Assembly: GCF_030525845.1 (NCBI RefSeq) | Contig: NZ_JAUNDY010000006.1 | Location: 1 to 64,000, forward strand | Direction of reading: 5' to 3' | Source of the DNA: Moraxella sp. | GTDB taxonomy: Bacteria; Pseudomonadota; Gammaproteobacteria; Pseudomonadales; Moraxellaceae | Length of the DNA: 64,000 nucleotides | Part shown: piece by piece, positions 2,064-12,781 of the stretch | Layout: every line of letters begins with the position of its first letter | Numbering within the stretch: position 1 is the stretch's first letter | Program-made: the position numbers and the translations under genes | The notes under the pieces: model-generated | Databases searched by the model: none | What the model was told of the DNA's origin: nothing | The model's input: only the letters and a program-made list of their open reading frames with translations

Positions 2064-2109
2064 TGGTAGGCCCAGCAGGACTTGAACCTGCGACCAAAGG
2101 ATTATGAGT
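2064..2109. repeat. attL: tRNA 3'-half direct repeat
   Basis: 46 bp identical to 8933-8978, covering the tRNA from the anticodon loop to the CCA end in minus orientation. Identity stops at 2110. This copy lacks the tRNA 5' half, so it is the displaced chromosomal 3' end created by integration. Confidence 0.9.
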
Positions 2110-2239
2110 ACGCCACAAATCATATCATTTAGGTTACGCCACTATCATTTATTTATTATTTATGTAAATAAAATCAATAACTTAATTACATATTGGCAAA
2201 AATAGTATCACTTAGCTTATGGCAATTTACATCATATTT

Positions 2240-2259
2240 GGTTATTATATGGTTATTAT
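2240..2259 (+). repeat. Left arm-type repeats (putative integrase sites)
   Basis: Two copies of GGTTATTAT start at 2240 and 2251, an 11-bp step, about 130 bp inside attL and just before the integrase start. The same word with the same 11-bp step occurs near the other end at 8836 and 8847. Phased arm-type sites for a tyrosine recombinase are the likely role. Their position also suggests that the integrase controls its own gene. Confidence 0.5.
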
Positions 2260-2273
2260 TTTTGGAGCAGCCT

Positions 2274-3509
2274 ATGAAAACCAAACTTACCACCGCCAAA
2301 ATTGACAAGCTAGAACCAACCGAAAAACAATACCTTGTTTGGGACGAAAAATACACAGGGCTTGGCGTGCTTGTGTCGCCAAAGGGTGCAAAATCATTTG
2401 TCTATCAGGGACGTGTGGGTGGCAAACAAAAACGTATCACGCTTGGCAAATACCCCCTAATGAGCTATCAAGATGCCATAGACAAAGCAAGCGAGATTAG
2501 CAAGCAGATGACCGCAGGTATTGACCCAAGCCGTCAAAAAGCCGAGCAACTTGCCAAAAACGCTGAATTTGAACAAATCAAAACCAAAAACAGCATTACC
2601 TTTGGGCAAGCCTTTACCGATTATTTTAACACAAAAAAGGGCGATTGGTCAGAAAACTACATAAAAGACCACATCAATAGTGCTAAGCCCTATATGTCAG
2701 ATAAACCCTACAAAGACGGCTGTTTAGCGTATATTTGGCACACGCCCTTATCTGAGCTTACGCCCGACCTGGTAGAACGATGGATAAGACACGAGAACCA
2801 GACCCGCAAAACACGTATGGCAATCGCCTACCGCATTTACCGTGCATTTGTAAATTGGGCGAACGAGCGAGAAACTTATAAAGACATTATCCCTACCAAA
2901 TCCGCCACCGCCAAAATCGTCTCAAATGCGGTAGCGAAGACAGGTAGGCACAAACACAGCCTACAACGCTCACAATTGCCCCTATGGTTTAAAACGCTTG
3001 AACAAATCCACCCTACACACGCCACCGTGTTAATTTGTATGTTATTAAATGGCTCACGCCCCAACGAAATGCTATCACTAAAATGGGAAAATGTGGATTT
3101 TGACTGGAAAACAATAACCATTATTGATAAAGTAGACCAATGGGAACGCACAATTCCACTGACGCCCTACACCGAATATCTTATCAAGCAAATGCCCAAA
3201 CATAGCGATTATATTTTTGCTACTGATAAAAATGATGGCCATACCGAGCTTGGCAAAACTTACCGTACCGCCATTTTGGACGCAGGACTACCCCGCCTGC
3301 CCCCAAAAGCAATGAGAAAGTCTTTTAGCAATCTATCCGAGTGGGTGGGCGTACCGCACGGCGTGGTTAAGCAGATAATGGGACACCGACCATCTGCTAC
3401 AGATGAAAAACACTACAAAGACCGCCCCATTGACCTTTTAAGACATTGGCACATCATTATTGAGCAGTTTATTTTGAGCGAAGCGGGCGTGGACATGTCG
3501 GTAGTTTAA
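2274..3509 (+). CDS. Tyrosine recombinase/integrase, P4-like
   Basis: A 411-residue site-specific recombinase that integrates and excises the element at the tRNA gene. It has an N-terminal arm-binding domain of the DUF4102 type (about residues 5-85: LTTAKIDKLEP, GLGVLVSPKG, ITLGKYP), a core-binding domain, and a C-terminal catalytic domain. Visible catalytic residues are Arg262 (GSRPNEM), Arg348, His371 (IMGHR) and the nucleophile Tyr381 (HYKDRP). The box II His of HxxR is replaced by Lys345 (KAMR). The start at ATG 2274 follows GGAGC; an upstream TTG at 2193 would add 27 residues across the putative arm sites and is disfavoured. The gene lies 164 bp from attL, as usual for this family. Confidence 0.93.
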   Translation: MKTKLTTAKIDKLEPTEKQYLVWDEKYTGLGVLVSPKGAKSFVYQGRVGGKQKRITLGKYPLMSYQDAIDKASEISKQMTAGIDPSRQKAEQLAKNAEFEQIKTKNSITFGQAFTDYFNTKKGDWSENYIKDHINSAKPYMSDKPYKDGCLAYIWHTPLSELTPDLVERWIRHENQTRKTRMAIAYRIYRAFVNWANERETYKDIIPTKSATAKIVSNAVAKTGRHKHSLQRSQLPLWFKTLEQIHPTHATVLICMLLNGSRPNEMLSLKWENVDFDWKTITIIDKVDQWERTIPLTPYTEYLIKQMPKHSDYIFATDKNDGHTELGKTYRTAILDAGLPRLPPKAMRKSFSNLSEWVGVPHGVVKQIMGHRPSATDEKHYKDRPIDLLRHWHIIIEQFILSEAGVDMSVV

Positions 3510-3904: not shown

Positions 3905-3920
3905 GTTCGTATATTAGAAC
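3905..3920. promoter_or_regulatory. Repressor operator, site 1
   Basis: GTTCGTATATTAGAAC, whose reverse complement GTTCTAATATACGAAC matches three other sites in the element (15/16 with the one at 7826). It lies between the divergent small HTH gene and the repressor, so it could control both. Confidence 0.6.
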
Positions 3921-3950
3921 ATATTGTTTGGGAATTTGTCAAGGTCTTGT

Positions 3951-3966
3951 GTTTTAATATACAAAC
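3951..3966. promoter_or_regulatory. Repressor operator, site 2
   Basis: GTTTTAATATACAAAC, 14/16 identical to GTTCTAATATACGAAC, placed 15 bases before the repressor start. This suggests autoregulation by the repressor. Confidence 0.55.
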
Positions 3967-3980
3967 AAATGGGAGTTAAT

Positions 3981-4652
3981 ATGCAAACAATCGCTGATAG
4001 AATCAGACAACAAATGACTGAGCATGATATATCACAAGCTGATATACATAGAGCTACAGGTGCAGGCAAGGCGACGATATCAAGTTGGCTTGATGGCAAA
4101 ACAGAGCCGTCCAGTAAATATATTGCAAGTCTTGCTGACGCATTAAAGTGCAATATGGAATGGCTTGTCGTGGGCAAGAACAACACCCATGCTATTGACA
4201 AAACCAAGCAAGCTATTGGAAATATCAGACCAGCTATGACAAAGTCACGAAAAGAAGTACGTTACGCTCCTTTACTTGCTCGTGTGCCAGCAGGCGAGTT
4301 TAAAAACACAGGCGATTTGACCCATGATACTTATATCTCTTATGACCAAGAAAGAGCCAGTGATGATTGCTACTGGCTTGAGGTATATGGTGACAGCATG
4401 GAACCTGATTTTAATAAAGGTGATTTGATATTAGTAGACGCAGGCAGACAGGCAAGGGCAGGCGATTATGTGGTGGCAAATTTAGATGATGGCGACTCGA
4501 CGTTTAAACGCTATAAGGCTTGTCATGATGATAATGATGGCGACTATGTACAGCTTATTGCCCTAAATAGTTTTTACACCCCAATTGATAGCCGAAAAGT
4601 GCAATTTCATGTGGCAGGCGTGGTGATTGAACATCGCCGAACATTAAAGTGA
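3981..4652 (+). CDS. XRE-family repressor with S24 (LexA/CI-like) autoprotease domain
   Basis: A 223-residue phage-type repressor. The N-terminal HTH (about residues 8-62: DISQADIHRATGAGKATIS then SWLDGK) binds DNA. The C-terminal S24 peptidase domain carries the catalytic Ser139 in GDSMEP and Lys176 in STFKRYK. A likely self-cleavage site is Ala104-Gly105 (VPAGEF). Cleavage on RecA activation after DNA damage would lift repression. The start at ATG 3981 follows GGGAG; an in-frame ATG at 3969 lacks that spacing. Two matching operators lie upstream and two more before the small-gene operon at 7906, pointing to that operon and the divergent HTH gene as targets. Confidence 0.9.
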   Translation: MQTIADRIRQQMTEHDISQADIHRATGAGKATISSWLDGKTEPSSKYIASLADALKCNMEWLVVGKNNTHAIDKTKQAIGNIRPAMTKSRKEVRYAPLLARVPAGEFKNTGDLTHDTYISYDQERASDDCYWLEVYGDSMEPDFNKGDLILVDAGRQARAGDYVVANLDDGDSTFKRYKACHDDNDGDYVQLIALNSFYTPIDSRKVQFHVAGVVIEHRRTLK

Positions 4653-4721: not shown

Positions 4722-6695
4722 ATGAATAAAGAGCCCGCTTATACTTTTACCGTTGATTTGGCAGCAGTTGAGCATCTAGGACTGAATTTATATAGCAATA
4801 CTGCAGCTGCACTGACAGAACTTATTGCAAACGCTTGGGATGCAGATGCCACTGAAGTCAGAATCACAATTAATGATGATCAAACCCAGATAACCATTGC
4901 AGATGATGGGCATGGCATGTCTGTAGATGACCTAAACAATAAGTTTCTAAAAGTAGCATATAAAAGACGTACTGAACAAGCAAAAAGCCCAAATGGGCGA
5001 CCTGTAATGGGAAGAAAAGGAATTGGTAAGCTTGCCTTATTTTCAATAGCTAAACATATTGTCATTACATCCAAACAAGAAGGGCAAGATAGTCATGCTC
5101 TATCCATTGATATTAATAAATTAAAAGAGTGTATCGCATCTAGCACGCCTTATCACCCATCGGAAGAAATGGCAGGTGATAATGCAGGACTAACTCATGG
5201 CACCACTTTTGTCTTGACCGAATTGTTAAGTAGCCGTGTCAATCAATCTATCTCAGCAATGAAGAAACGTATTGCAAGACGCTTCTCGGTTATTGGAGGG
5301 CAGGATAAATTTGATGTTTATGTTAATGATGAAAAAATCAGTCACTTAGACCGAGATGATTATCGCAATTTGCAGTTTGTTTGGCGGCTACCCAATAGCA
5401 AACAACATACATTCTTGGAGGAAACCCAGAAATTTGACTTTCCAACAAATCAACATACCTATGAAAATAAAAATTACTCATTTTCTGGGTGGATTGGTAC
5501 AGCATATAAACCTAAAGACTTAGATAGTAGTGACATGGGTAATATTAATGGTATATCCATTTTATCTCGCGGACGCATCTTTCAAGAAAACATTTTAGAT
5601 AAAATCTCTGAGAATCGTTTAATTAAAAGCTACATCACCGGTGTTGTTCAGGCTGATTTTTTGGACGATGACGATGACGATGATTTGGCAACCAGTGACC
5701 GTCAGCGTGTCCGCGAGGATGACCCACGTTATATGGCATTGGTAGAATTTATTAAGTCTCTCATCAATCAGATGTTTAGTATATGGAGCAAAGAGAGAAA
5801 AAAATATGATGTTCAAGAATCAGTTAAACGCTATCCCCTTCTAAATGATTGGATTCAAGAATTGCCAGAGGCTCATAGAAAGCAAGCTGAGGAATTATTA
5901 TCAACAGTTTCTCATCTCAGTATTAATAGCGATAAAGAGGATGACAGAAAAGAGCTGTTTAGAAGCACGGTATTGGCATTTGAACGCTTAAAACTAGAAG
6001 GTAGCGTGCATGAGTTTAATACTGCCATCAACTCAAGTCCTGCTGAACTGATTAAGATATTCAGTAGTTATGATTCTTATGAAATTTCTCTTTATCATAA
6101 TGTGGTAAAATCAAGACTCAATACCATTAATTTGATTCAAGATAAAATTAAAGAAAATGACTACGAGAACAGCATCCGTGATTTTATTCATGAACATCTA
6201 TGGCTAATTGATCCGACTTGGGAGAGGGTTTCCACAACAGCATATAAAGAAACAAGTGTACATCGAATGTTTAAAGAACATCCAGATATCAAAGACTTGC
6301 TATCAGAGGATGAAAGACGTGGGAGGCTAGATTTGACTTATAGAACTCTGGGTGGTGAACATATCATCATTGAGCTAAAAAGACCCAAGTTGAGCTACAA
6401 ACTGGAAATATTCAAACTCTTGGAGCAGGGTTCGAAATATCGAGACGCACTATTTAAATGCTTAAATCAAACGGATCCTAATTTTACTGATAAAGATAGA
6501 ATATCTGTGATATTTTTGATTGGTGAAAGATTTGATCGTAGTCAAAAGGAGGTTGAAGACATATTTAATGGGATTAAAGGCAGGGTATCCACTTATGATG
6601 AAATGCTCACAAAAGCCAAGGCTGCCTATGCTGACTTTTTAGAATCAACCAAAGAGCTTGATAAAATCAAGAATCTAATTGAATCTTTAAGCTAA
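4722..6695 (+). CDS. GHKL (MORC/MutL-like) ATPase fused to PD-(D/E)XK nuclease
   Basis: A 657-residue two-part protein. The N-terminal GHKL ATPase has the N-box ELIANAWDAD (Glu33, Asn37, Asp40), the G1 motif DDGHGM (61-66) and the G2 motif GRKGIGKLA (97-105). These are followed by an S5-like transducer region (to about 335) containing FLD plus six further Asp and then LATSDRQR, a MORC/MutL-type signature. A helical linker (340-480) leads to a C-terminal domain with FIHEHLWLID (488-497), Asp537 (GRLDLTY) and ExK at 551-553 (IELKRP). This resembles DUF4263/Shedu-type nuclease cores. ATP-dependent DNA clamp or cleavage activity is inferred. It starts at 4722 after GGAG, 69 bp behind the repressor, and its 3' end overlaps the convergent methyltransferase by 29 bp. 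Prokaryotic GHKL-nuclease fusions beside DNA methyltransferases have been described as restriction-modification components (Iyer, Abhiman and Aravind 2008). Confidence 0.82.
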   Translation: MNKEPAYTFTVDLAAVEHLGLNLYSNTAAALTELIANAWDADATEVRITINDDQTQITIADDGHGMSVDDLNNKFLKVAYKRRTEQAKSPNGRPVMGRKGIGKLALFSIAKHIVITSKQEGQDSHALSIDINKLKECIASSTPYHPSEEMAGDNAGLTHGTTFVLTELLSSRVNQSISAMKKRIARRFSVIGGQDKFDVYVNDEKISHLDRDDYRNLQFVWRLPNSKQHTFLEETQKFDFPTNQHTYENKNYSFSGWIGTAYKPKDLDSSDMGNINGISILSRGRIFQENILDKISENRLIKSYITGVVQADFLDDDDDDDLATSDRQRVREDDPRYMALVEFIKSLINQMFSIWSKERKKYDVQESVKRYPLLNDWIQELPEAHRKQAEELLSTVSHLSINSDKEDDRKELFRSTVLAFERLKLEGSVHEFNTAINSSPAELIKIFSSYDSYEISLYHNVVKSRLNTINLIQDKIKENDYENSIRDFIHEHLWLIDPTWERVSTTAYKETSVHRMFKEHPDIKDLLSEDERRGRLDLTYRTLGGEHIIIELKRPKLSYKLEIFKLLEQGSKYRDALFKCLNQTDPNFTDKDRISVIFLIGERFDRSQKEVEDIFNGIKGRVSTYDEMLTKAKAAYADFLESTKELDKIKNLIESLS

Positions 6696-7683
6696 GCCCT
6701 ACAACTTCACCTAGTCGAACAGGCACGGCATTTCCTATCATTTTAGATATGGACGTCTTATTGATATTCTCAGCAAACTTATAATCATCAGGAAAGGTTT
6801 GGAATATGGCTGCCTCCCTTAAAGAAATCGCTCTATCCTGCTCAGGATGTCCAAAACGACCATTGCCATACCCTGTGCACAAGGTTGTCATGGTTGGTGC
6901 AGGCTGATCCCAAGACATACGACCATAAACATTCCCATATGTCTTTCCAGATGTTTTTTTATGACAATCAGCAATCAGCTCCTCAGGCCAGTCTCGCCAA
7001 GTACCACCCTGCCTAGATGCCTTAATTCTTTGCATATTTAAATCACTAAGTTTAGCACTAAAATGCAAAGGATCAGTAATACAAGTCTCGCCAGCTTCTA
7101 TGGCTGATAGATGCGAAATAGCATCTTTCACTGTTACGGGGATTTGATGAGTGGGTGGGATAAGACTGACTTCACCGATACGACTTGCCAATAAGACATG
7201 ACGCTTGCGACGCTGTGGTATGCCATATTTGACACACTCTACTGTTTGAGCTGATACCATATAACCTAATGATTTCAATCCAGAAACGAAATCATGATAA
7301 ACTTGATGTTTGATGACACTGGGGACATTTTCCATAGTTACCAATTCAGGTAAGACATCCCTAATTAATCGAGAAAAATGGTGTAATAAGGGGTATTTTT
7401 CATCCACCGTAGTATCACGACCATTGTTATAAGTTGAAAAAGGCTGGCATGGCGCACATCCAGCTAATAAGCGAACAGCACCCCGTGAATACCAACTATT
7501 TATCTCGTCAGCTGTTACATCTTTAACATCTTTATGAACGAAGGTTGCATTGTTATTGTACTCATAGCCAAAGCGACAAGCGGACTCTATGTCATAACCT
7601 GCCTTTACCTTTATACCTGATTTTAATAGTCCTGCTGTCAGGCCACCAACACCACAGAACAAATCTACTGCCTCTATTTGCAT
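6667..7683 (-). CDS. C5-cytosine DNA methyltransferase
   Basis: A 338-residue enzyme that methylates cytosine at C5 in a specific DNA site using S-adenosylmethionine. All key motifs are present: motif I DLFCGVGGLTAG (7-18), motif IV GCAPCQPFS with nucleophile Cys79, motif VI ENVP (118-121), motif VIII QRRKRHVLLAS (157-167) and motif X GNAVPVRLGE near the C-terminus. The target-recognition region lies between motifs VIII and IX (about 175-260); the recognised site cannot be read from sequence. It is convergent with the ATPase-nuclease and their ends overlap by 29 bp, suggesting that the pair moves as a unit. The likely role is protecting host DNA from the partner nuclease. No Vsr-type endonuclease accompanies it. 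Confidence 0.93.
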   Translation of the reverse strand: MQIEAVDLFCGVGGLTAGLLKSGIKVKAGYDIESACRFGYEYNNNATFVHKDVKDVTADEINSWYSRGAVRLLAGCAPCQPFSTYNNGRDTTVDEKYPLLHHFSRLIRDVLPELVTMENVPSVIKHQVYHDFVSGLKSLGYMVSAQTVECVKYGIPQRRKRHVLLASRIGEVSLIPPTHQIPVTVKDAISHLSAIEAGETCITDPLHFSAKLSDLNMQRIKASRQGGTWRDWPEELIADCHKKTSGKTYGNVYGRMSWDQPAPTMTTLCTGYGNGRFGHPEQDRAISLREAAIFQTFPDDYKFAENINKTSISKMIGNAVPVRLGEVVGLSLKIQLDS

Positions 7684-7825: not shown

Positions 7826-7841
7826 ATTCTAATATACGAAC
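7826..7841. promoter_or_regulatory. Repressor operator, site 3
   Basis: ATTCTAATATACGAAC, identical in 15 of 16 positions to the reverse complement of site 1 at 3905-3920. It lies 65 bp before the small-gene operon. Confidence 0.6.
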
Positions 7842-7860: not shown

Positions 7861-7876
7861 GTTTGAATATGCGAAC
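7861..7876. promoter_or_regulatory. Repressor operator, site 4
   Basis: GTTTGAATATGCGAAC, 13/16 identical to GTTCTAATATACGAAC, 35 bp (centre to centre) after site 3 and 30 bases before the start at 7906. Confidence 0.5.
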
Positions 7877-7905: not shown

Positions 7906-8094
7906 ATGACTCAATCTCACCAAGTCACTAAAGTTGATTTTTTCTTAAAAATCTTTGTTGTCATCACGCTTGCTCTGCTCCCCGTGGCGTGTACTAAGGG
8001 TTTAGAGCGTCAAGCTCGCGCTGATTATCAAAAATGCCTATCATGGCAAGCAGATGGCTACGACATCCGCTGTGATAATAGCAAATGGCAATAA
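7906..8094 (+). CDS. Small putative lipoprotein, first gene of the repressible operon
   Basis: A 62-residue protein with a hydrophobic segment (residues 12-28) ending in LLPVAC, a lipobox-like sequence with Cys29. The remaining part is short, polar and has two more Cys. I do not recognise a family. AGGAAA before the ATG at 7906 serves as ribosome site. Being first behind two operators, it probably belongs to the induced programme of the element; a role at the membrane is possible but unproven. Confidence 0.5.
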   Translation: MTQSHQVTKVDFFLKIFVVITLALLPVACTKGLERQARADYQKCLSWQADGYDIRCDNSKWQ

Positions 8095-8119: not shown

Positions 8120-8344
8120 ATGCTTATGCCTCAAACTGTTAAAGAGTACCGCCAAGCCCAAAACGCCAAAGAGTTAAGCGATTGTCGCCGTCTGACAACA
8201 AAACTACTTTCCACCAATCCGCAGGGTCTCACTCTGCCAGTTATACAGACAACCGTTGGTATGTCCGCCAAAACTGCCAAGCGTATACTGGCAGGCGTGG
8301 CAGACGAAAAAGACGGCAAGTTTTATCTCAACAAAAGACACTGA
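8120..8344 (+). CDS. Small hypothetical protein with winged-helix-like C-terminus
   Basis: A 74-residue basic protein. The segment LPVIQTTVGMSAKTAKRILA followed by a short KDGKFYL strand looks like a helix-turn-helix plus wing, so DNA binding is possible. The ATG at 8120 follows AAGGAG at ideal spacing, which decides the start; an earlier frame start at 8054 overlaps the previous gene. It lies 25 bp behind the 62-residue gene and likely shares its transcript. No named family was recognised. Confidence 0.55.
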   Translation: MLMPQTVKEYRQAQNAKELSDCRRLTTKLLSTNPQGLTLPVIQTTVGMSAKTAKRILAGVADEKDGKFYLNKRH

Positions 8345-8376: not shown

Positions 8377-8505
8377 ATGAATACTTATTTTTTTAACCGT
8401 GATGATGGCTCAGCAGTCAAAGCCAATAGCTCGGGCAGAATGACCGCCCATGAGTTCTACCCCGCCAAAATCACACAGGCATACTGGGGCGTATCCCACC
8501 ATTGA
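8377..8505 (+). CDS. Very small hypothetical protein
   Basis: A 42-residue frame from ATG 8377, preceded by AGGAGCAAAC, a strong ribosome site. The product (MNTYFFNRDDGSAVKANSSG...) matches nothing I know. It overlaps the next frame (start 8450) by 56 bases in a different phase. This could mean translational coupling, or that a frameshift has split one gene into two. Confidence 0.4.
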   Translation: MNTYFFNRDDGSAVKANSSGRMTAHEFYPAKITQAYWGVSHH

Positions 8506-8791
8506 AACAGACATCAATATCAGCGACCTAAAAAAGTCAAACAAGCGTGGGCATGAATTATTAAGATATGCTTATGATGTATTGCAGTATGACGGCATTA
8601 AGCTACTACACACCGCCATACACGCTGGTGTATCACACGTTAATCACATCATGGCAAGCAGTATGCTAGGTTACAAGCCTGCCACTTTGAGAAATTGGCA
8701 CAGCCAAAGCAATGGACCTATCCAAACACGCATGATTAACGGTAAGCCCTTTTGGGCGGTTAAAGACATCAGGCAATTGTTAGGCGAGTAA
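8450..8791 (+). CDS. Excisionase/AlpA-like HTH protein
   Basis: A 113-residue protein. Its C-terminal half (about 72-113) reads LGYKPATLRNWHSQ, then GKPFWAVKDIRQLL, the pattern of HTH_17/MerR-like excisionases and AlpA regulators: a helix pair, a wing, then a helix with a W..KDI..LL ending. Such proteins direct excision or activate integrase genes in satellites and prophages. It is the last gene before the terminator and attR. The start at 8450 overlaps the 42-residue frame; the ATG at 8549 would also keep the HTH. The role is inferred from motif and position. Confidence 0.55.
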   Translation: MSSTPPKSHRHTGAYPTIETDINISDLKKSNKRGHELLRYAYDVLQYDGIKLLHTAIHAGVSHVNHIMASSMLGYKPATLRNWHSQSNGPIQTRMINGKPFWAVKDIRQLLGE

Positions 8792-8932: not shown

Positions 8933-8978
8933 TGGTAGGCCCAGCAGGACTTGAACCTGCGACCAAAGGATTATGAGT
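8933..8978. repeat. attR: tRNA 3'-half direct repeat
   Basis: 46 bp identical to 2064-2109. This copy forms the anticodon-to-CCA half of the intact tRNA, so integration rebuilt a functional tRNA gene. Confidence 0.9.
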
Positions 8979-9009
8979 CCTCTGCTCTAACCAACTGAGC
9001 TATGAGCCC
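8933..9009 (-). tRNA. tRNA with CAT anticodon (Met elongator, or Ile2)
   Basis: A 77-nt cloverleaf including encoded CCA: acceptor GGGCTCA pairs with TGGGCCT, the D-arm is GCTC/GAGC, the anticodon loop is CTCATAA and the T-arm contains GGTTCAAGTCC. The anticodon CAT fits elongator Met; a lysidine-modified Ile2 tRNA reads the same at DNA level and is not excluded (C4-G69 is present). The 3' half was supplied by the integrated element. Confidence 0.93.

Positions 9010-11322: not shown

Positions 11323-12767
<1,445 letters not shown>

Positions 12768-12781
<14 letters not shown>

Follow-up and report, generated by a model that had tools for sequence, protein, structure and literature searches.

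What kind of system arises when the gene for an ATPase-nuclease fusion ends inside the gene for a DNA methyltransferase? The question is raised by a locus in a 64,000-nucleotide stretch of Moraxella sp. DNA (RefSeq assembly GCF_030525845.1, contig NZ_JAUNDY010000006.1, positions 1 to 64,000), hereafter the window. A protein of 657 amino acids (aa), here called R (4722..6695, plus strand), is encoded convergently with a C5-cytosine DNA methyltransferase, M (6667..7683, minus strand). Both open reading frames (ORFs) are complete and their 3' ends overlap by 29 bp, as the initial annotation had observed, and the motifs named there are found. Most probably, the two genes form a BbrUII/HgiDII-like restriction-modification (R-M) system: M would methylate a cytosine of GTCGAC, and R would cut unmarked DNA.

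Families and domains of R and M

R consists of a GHKL ATPase, an S5-like middle domain, a helical linker, and a predicted Shedu-like PD-(D/E)XK nuclease. The NCBIfam model NF050001 ("BbrUII/HgiDII family restriction enzyme") matches R with 707.9 bits over residues 7-656 of 657, above its curated cut-off of 550 bits, and the adjacent C5 methyltransferase that characterizes this kind of system is present as M. PADLOC classes R as a type II restriction enzyme (REase_II, PDLC03419, 2e-115) and M as MTase_II (9.3e-84), and the Pfam matches are PF00145 for M (6e-51) and HATPase_c_3 for R (4.7e-26). Among the 348 analyzed genomes of the family Moraxellaceae, the NF050001 cut-off is passed in only two, that of the window and G218. 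The idea of R as an unclassified stand-in for a type II endonuclease is not supported, given the named family, the PADLOC class, and an architecture described in 2008 as paraMORC3 (Iyer, Abhiman and Aravind; PMC2292703). Like paraMORC3, R combines intact GHKL motifs and an S5-type domain with a C-terminal restriction-endonuclease-fold domain bearing E-D-ExK residues, and paraMORC3 was linked to restriction-modification in the same work. The parts of that paper covered here already mention helicase operons, methylase neighbors, and stand-alone paraMORC3 forms; they use neither the name DISARM, which was coined later, nor HgiDII (0 occurrences). Judged by sequence, the R/M pair is a real, intact type II-like R-M system of a family already known, so that its novelty is modest.

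The pairing of a GHKL ATPase and a DUF4263/Shedu-kind nuclease with a C5 methyltransferase, proposed in the initial annotation, is supported, with the fold coming from structure prediction. In a fold search with a predicted structure, the N-terminal half of R resembles MORC3, Hsp90, and MutL, and Foldseek with the full-length model ranks Hsp90-type chains first. For the C-terminal part, in which a nuclease fold had been postulated, such a fold is indeed predicted: the best match of residues 450-657 is SduA of E. coli. The nuclease residues E482, D537, and E551-x-K553 are kept in all 133 aligned sequences. At the sequence level, the Pfam domain SduA_C (PF14082) matches 53 of 81 members of the R family at E <= 0.1 (best 6.8e-7), and SduA_C/DUF4263 scores 17.9 bits on the window R, under the Pfam cut-off of 27. 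A profile search of the nuclease against solved structures yielded nothing meaningful (best E 0.7), and the fold assignment therefore rests on the model searches. By its predicted structure, the nuclease of R is Shedu-like in fold, but is not filed as a Shedu member.

A protein of similar organization is VcSduA, a Shedu type I-D protein considered here from its description, in which a GHKL ATPase is likewise followed by a DUF4263-type PD-(D/E)XK domain (PMC12137116). Its anti-phage activity was lost on E27A or K557A substitution, and by motif alignment these catalytic residues correspond to E33 and K553 of R. Unlike R, VcSduA has no methyltransferase described with it in the covered parts of that paper.

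Partners of R and M homologues

Public genomes contain 553 loci encoding relatives of R, of which the best 80 were analyzed. A C5 methyltransferase gene within 1.5 kb is found in 50 of these (upstream in 43, convergent in seven), and one more is distant; two of the loci counted as having a tandem methyltransferase gene also carry weak Drm matches. Co-occurrence with methyltransferases, on which the initial annotation depended, is thus frequent, all the more as 14 further homologues adjoin drmMI. The window pair, with its convergent overlap, differs from the majority of its BbrUII/HgiDII relatives, in which M lies upstream in tandem or nearby (43/80). The rest of the set comprises loci with DrmMI and DrmA (14), DrmA and DrmB (four), or DrmB only (two), and nine loci with no C5 methyltransferase and no Drm gene at the thresholds used. 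Among 92 R relatives on viral contigs, the 80 that were kept, with near-identical contigs counted singly, show a convergent C5 methyltransferase gene in 29 cases, another layout within 1.5 kb in 36, none in 13, and Drm genes in two. The contig of one 63% identical relative (L117) carries tail genes. A relative at E <= 1e-50 is present in one of 50,697 phage records, Escherichia phage PhiR44_1 of E. coli C (PV340563), where it is annotated as ParaMORC3; gpQ and gpA flank it together with a Dcm gene that is convergent with it. Plasmid records with an R relative number nine of 72,556. Several R homologues also occur in one archaeal chromosome, that of an uncultured Cenarchaeum (OY282369.1; L080, L091, L095, and L096), most of them without a nearby C5 methyltransferase.

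The 14 loci with DrmMI and DrmA (L032, L033, L035-L041, L044, L047, L051, L052, and L058) correspond to DISARM (DrmD-DrmMI-DrmA-DrmB). In all of them the R homologue has intact nuclease residues and is flanked by DrmMI and DrmA, all three genes having the same orientation. The Drm names were assigned by PADLOC at L051 and by phmmer with the L051 proteins at the other loci. In the phylogenetic tree of R (92 rows), at least four changes are needed between DISARM and C5-methyltransferase contexts. A regular role of R in DISARM was rejected: among 370 genomes of the class, none of the four loci with a DrmMI relative shows an R homologue within the flanking sequence retrieved, although at two of them this sequence is too short on that side for a firm negative; R is for this reason considered an optional DISARM part. 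Another DISARM layout can be observed at L043, L066, L069, and L086, where R homologues adjoin DrmA and DrmB with DrmMI not detected. The window itself is unlike DISARM, as its ORFs of at least 60 aa give no match at E <= 1e-10 to DrmA, DrmB, DrmD, or DrmMI of L051. No earlier report of an R homologue in DISARM was recognized in literature listings, the original DISARM paper being outside their scope.

Homologues of M have partners of their own. A methyltransferase 68% identical to M, from a different genus of the family (L114:1468-3874), lies beside HEPN_MAE_28990 (2e-13) and DUF262 genes, and some of the M relatives on plasmids (28 records) have as neighbors a DUF262 protein and a HEPN-like nuclease of the MAE_28990/MAE_18760 family. 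Among 467 M relatives on viral contigs, the nearest 80 have HEPN and DUF262 neighbors in 50 cases, DUF262 alone in four, an R homologue in 19, neither in seven, and both in none. The HEPN genes are convergent with M in all 50 cases and overlap it in 28. This module therefore has the same convergent layout as the window pair, whereas its restriction side is unrelated to R. A HEPN-ParB-methylase operon has been noted before (PMC3710099, in the part covered). Among the nearest 80 on viral contigs, methyltransferases of the window clade are paired more often with DUF262 and HEPN than with an R homologue; the loci covered were L114, L225, L226, L227, and L229-L308.

The tree of M contains 142 rows (178 before near-copies of the same label were dropped), 94 with GHKL, 38 with HEPN, and 10 with other partners. 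A switch between GHKL and HEPN partners is required 14 times on this tree, and at least 10 changes are forced for the HEPN label by well supported branches; one set of identical rows falls in more than one group. The window M, the G218 M (GHKL), and the L229 M (HEPN) form one clade with support 99, within a clade of 15 HEPN and four GHKL rows. Hence one and the same methyltransferase clade serves both GHKL and DUF262/HEPN modules. Because relatives of M and of R each also adjoin unrelated defense genes, it is likely that the two halves have been exchanged between anti-phage systems. These two features, the swapping of partners within a single methyltransferase clade and the lending of a nuclease to DISARM, can both be counted and go beyond routine annotation. 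A broader reading, which we regard as possible but doubtful, is that M is a general self-marking module for unrelated executioners, either a MORC-ATPase/Shedu-nuclease or DUF262/HEPN in the same convergent slot, that the former has also been lent to DISARM as an optional DNA cutter, and that the GHKL clamp would be a sensor of missing methylation, not a site-specific endonuclease.

The 6.9-kb element carrying the pair

The R/M pair lies within 6,869 bp bounded by a 46-bp exact repeat. It differs from BbrUII/HgiDII systems in being carried on a tRNA-Met island together with a CI/S24 repressor gene. One attachment (att) copy (8933..8978) is part of an intact tRNA-Met gene (8933-9009, minus strand; ARAGORN), and the distal copy (2064..2109) is identical to it, repeating the 3' part of the tRNA. 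An empty integration site was not found in relatives: at 21 loci, the tRNA-Met side alone matched and the left flank had no match. Next to the distal copy, a tyrosine integrase with an arm-binding domain is encoded at 2193..3509, plus strand (PF13356 5.4e-17, PF00589 3.1e-11; phrog_1 integrase 1.5e-38). It is followed by a CI-type repressor with an S24 self-cleavage domain (3981..4652, plus strand; Peptidase_S24 9.1e-23, HTH_3 1e-7; phrog_4 transcriptional repressor 3.6e-43), for which an alternative TTG start exists at 3924. We take its self-cleavage site to be the A-G in RVPAGEF, with Ser in GDSM and Lys in TFKRYK. Beyond M, two small phage-type ORFs of unknown function (7906..8094, phrog_17969, 3.8e-20; 8120..8344, phrog_15812, 1.4e-16) precede a 113-aa ORF (8450..8791) without a match in Pfam, PADLOC, or PHROGs, all three on the plus strand.

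An operator-like 16-mer, GTTCGTATATTAGAAC, is located at the repressor's own start (3905..3920, plus strand). Further copies on the minus strand are found nearby (3951..3966, two mismatches) and between M and the small-ORF group (7826..7841, one mismatch; 7861..7876, three mismatches). At up to three mismatches these are the only four sites in the window, all within the element, compared with 0.37 expected and at least four in none of 100 shuffles; because the pattern was picked by eye from this region, the statistic bears on the other three sites only. Promoter and terminator scans were no richer than shuffles (12 vs. 14.8 and 3 vs. 3.3, respectively).

Since the repressor gene ends 69 bp ahead of R on the same strand, R may be tied to the control circuit of the element and be under phage-type control. 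The R gene of G218 is likewise preceded by an S24 repressor gene, which is a different one and ends 34 bp ahead of it. Coupling of this kind was rejected as a rule of the family, as an S24 repressor is directly upstream of R in only five of 38 convergent loci (the window, G218, L135, L136, and L149), Pfam having been run on L135, L136, and L149, which were chosen by eye among 36. At a few other convergent loci, a short helix-turn-helix (HTH) gene is upstream of R. The M gene of G218 has as neighbors genes for an HTH protein and an IrrE-type peptidase (L116:9407-10220), perhaps the remains of another phage control region. Outside the element, inspection by eye shows a 127-aa PIN-domain-like ORF (12398-12781) overlapping the start of a 362-aa ketol-acid reductoisomerase-like ORF (11323-12411) on the same strand.

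Target, mechanism, and alternative explanations

The BbrUII and HgiDII restriction enzymes are GTCGAC-specific. The same sequence is given as the target of the methyltransferases M.HgiDII and M.BbrUII in the covered parts of two papers (PMC5867850, PMC5005818). For the window pair, GTCGAC is predicted from family membership. Residues 170-260 of M, the target region, are conserved to the same degree as the whole protein (median 0.53 vs. 0.52 between the window and 111 relatives), which would suit one shared target without proving it. GTCGAC occurs 32 times in genome G000 (1.89 Mb), 10 times in G218, and 1-83 times in each of the remaining 20 genomes from the genus; in the window it is absent, with 2.8 occurrences expected. 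Site avoidance was rejected as evidence for the target: the sequence is rare throughout the genus (22 genomes), whether R is present or not, and the counts therefore give the target no support.

If the pair acts as a BbrUII/HgiDII-type system, M would mark the chromosome by methylating cytosine within GTCGAC. R, predicted to be a dimer, would close around DNA with its MORC/MutL-like ATPase and middle domain. Binding or hydrolysis of ATP may then shut the clamp and license the nuclease, as suggested by comparison with the ATPase and nuclease point mutants of VcSduA; ATP-driven clamping by R can fairly be inferred. The Shedu-like domain would be the cutter where the mark is missing, the repressor would connect R with phage-type regulation, and the pair may defend the host together with its element. 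In this scheme the genes, families, conserved residues, and contexts are observed and the folds predicted; the target, the dimer, the role of ATP, the cutting, the repressor control, and the anti-phage role are predicted steps. Several points weigh against this reading. The target is predicted from the family, and the site counts do not favor it. The full-length model of R is only fair (predicted local distance difference test 76.4, predicted template modeling score 0.53), conservation figures for the GHKL motifs are partly circular because loci were found using GHKL patterns, and nine of the 80 R loci have no partner. The 14 DISARM loci also count against it, because site-specific type II cutting would not be the obvious function there.

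These DISARM loci, with the R homologue in the DrmMI-DrmA gap, point to an alternative, in which R is a methylation-licensed ATP clamp that, once loaded on unmethylated DNA, breaks it down, GTCGAC itself not being the place of the cut; in this it would be closer to DISARM or type I enzymes. Such a function would agree with the changes of context on the R tree and with the intact ATPase of R, since classical type II cutting requires none. We nevertheless consider it rather unlikely: NCBIfam and PADLOC place the R family among type II restriction enzymes, and the family is named after BbrUII and HgiDII, which are GTCGAC enzymes on the restriction side too, the two papers cited above giving this target for their methyltransferases. 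A different explanation starts from the element, which carries between its att repeats only R, M, the integrase, the repressor, and small ORFs. The pair could mainly be a selfish addiction module that stabilizes the element, with phage defense being secondary, and the occurrence of R relatives on P2-like phages, prophage-like contigs, and the nine plasmid records would fit this. Nothing specific speaks against it, as most R-M systems could serve both ends, but the rarity of R in genomes of the family (2/348) does not favor strong maintenance, and we hold this explanation to be improbable. Still less credence is given to R as a stand-alone phage-sensing nuclease of the VcSduA kind, with M a mere neighbor without a role in self-protection. 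VcSduA has the same domain order and defends without a named methyltransferase gene, SduA is the best fold match of the nuclease, and partnerless R loci exist; however, a C5 methyltransferase adjoins the R homologue at 50 of the 80 genomic loci and at 65 of the 80 viral ones, in both orientations, and the Shedu Pfam score of the window R is below the cut-off.

The BbrUII/HgiDII-type reading thus remains the preferred one, and the partner exchange suggests that modification and restriction modules combine freely. In the covered part of a structural study of DISARM, the way in which DNA degradation is achieved is called a mystery, DrmC being dispensable (PMC9142583); where a DISARM operon contains an R homologue, that protein is a candidate for the nuclease. 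An intact MORC-type ATPase in a restriction enzyme poses the question of whether, and for what, ATP is needed by a type II-like GTCGAC enzyme. The answer would bear on both MORC and Shedu proteins, each of which shares one half with R.
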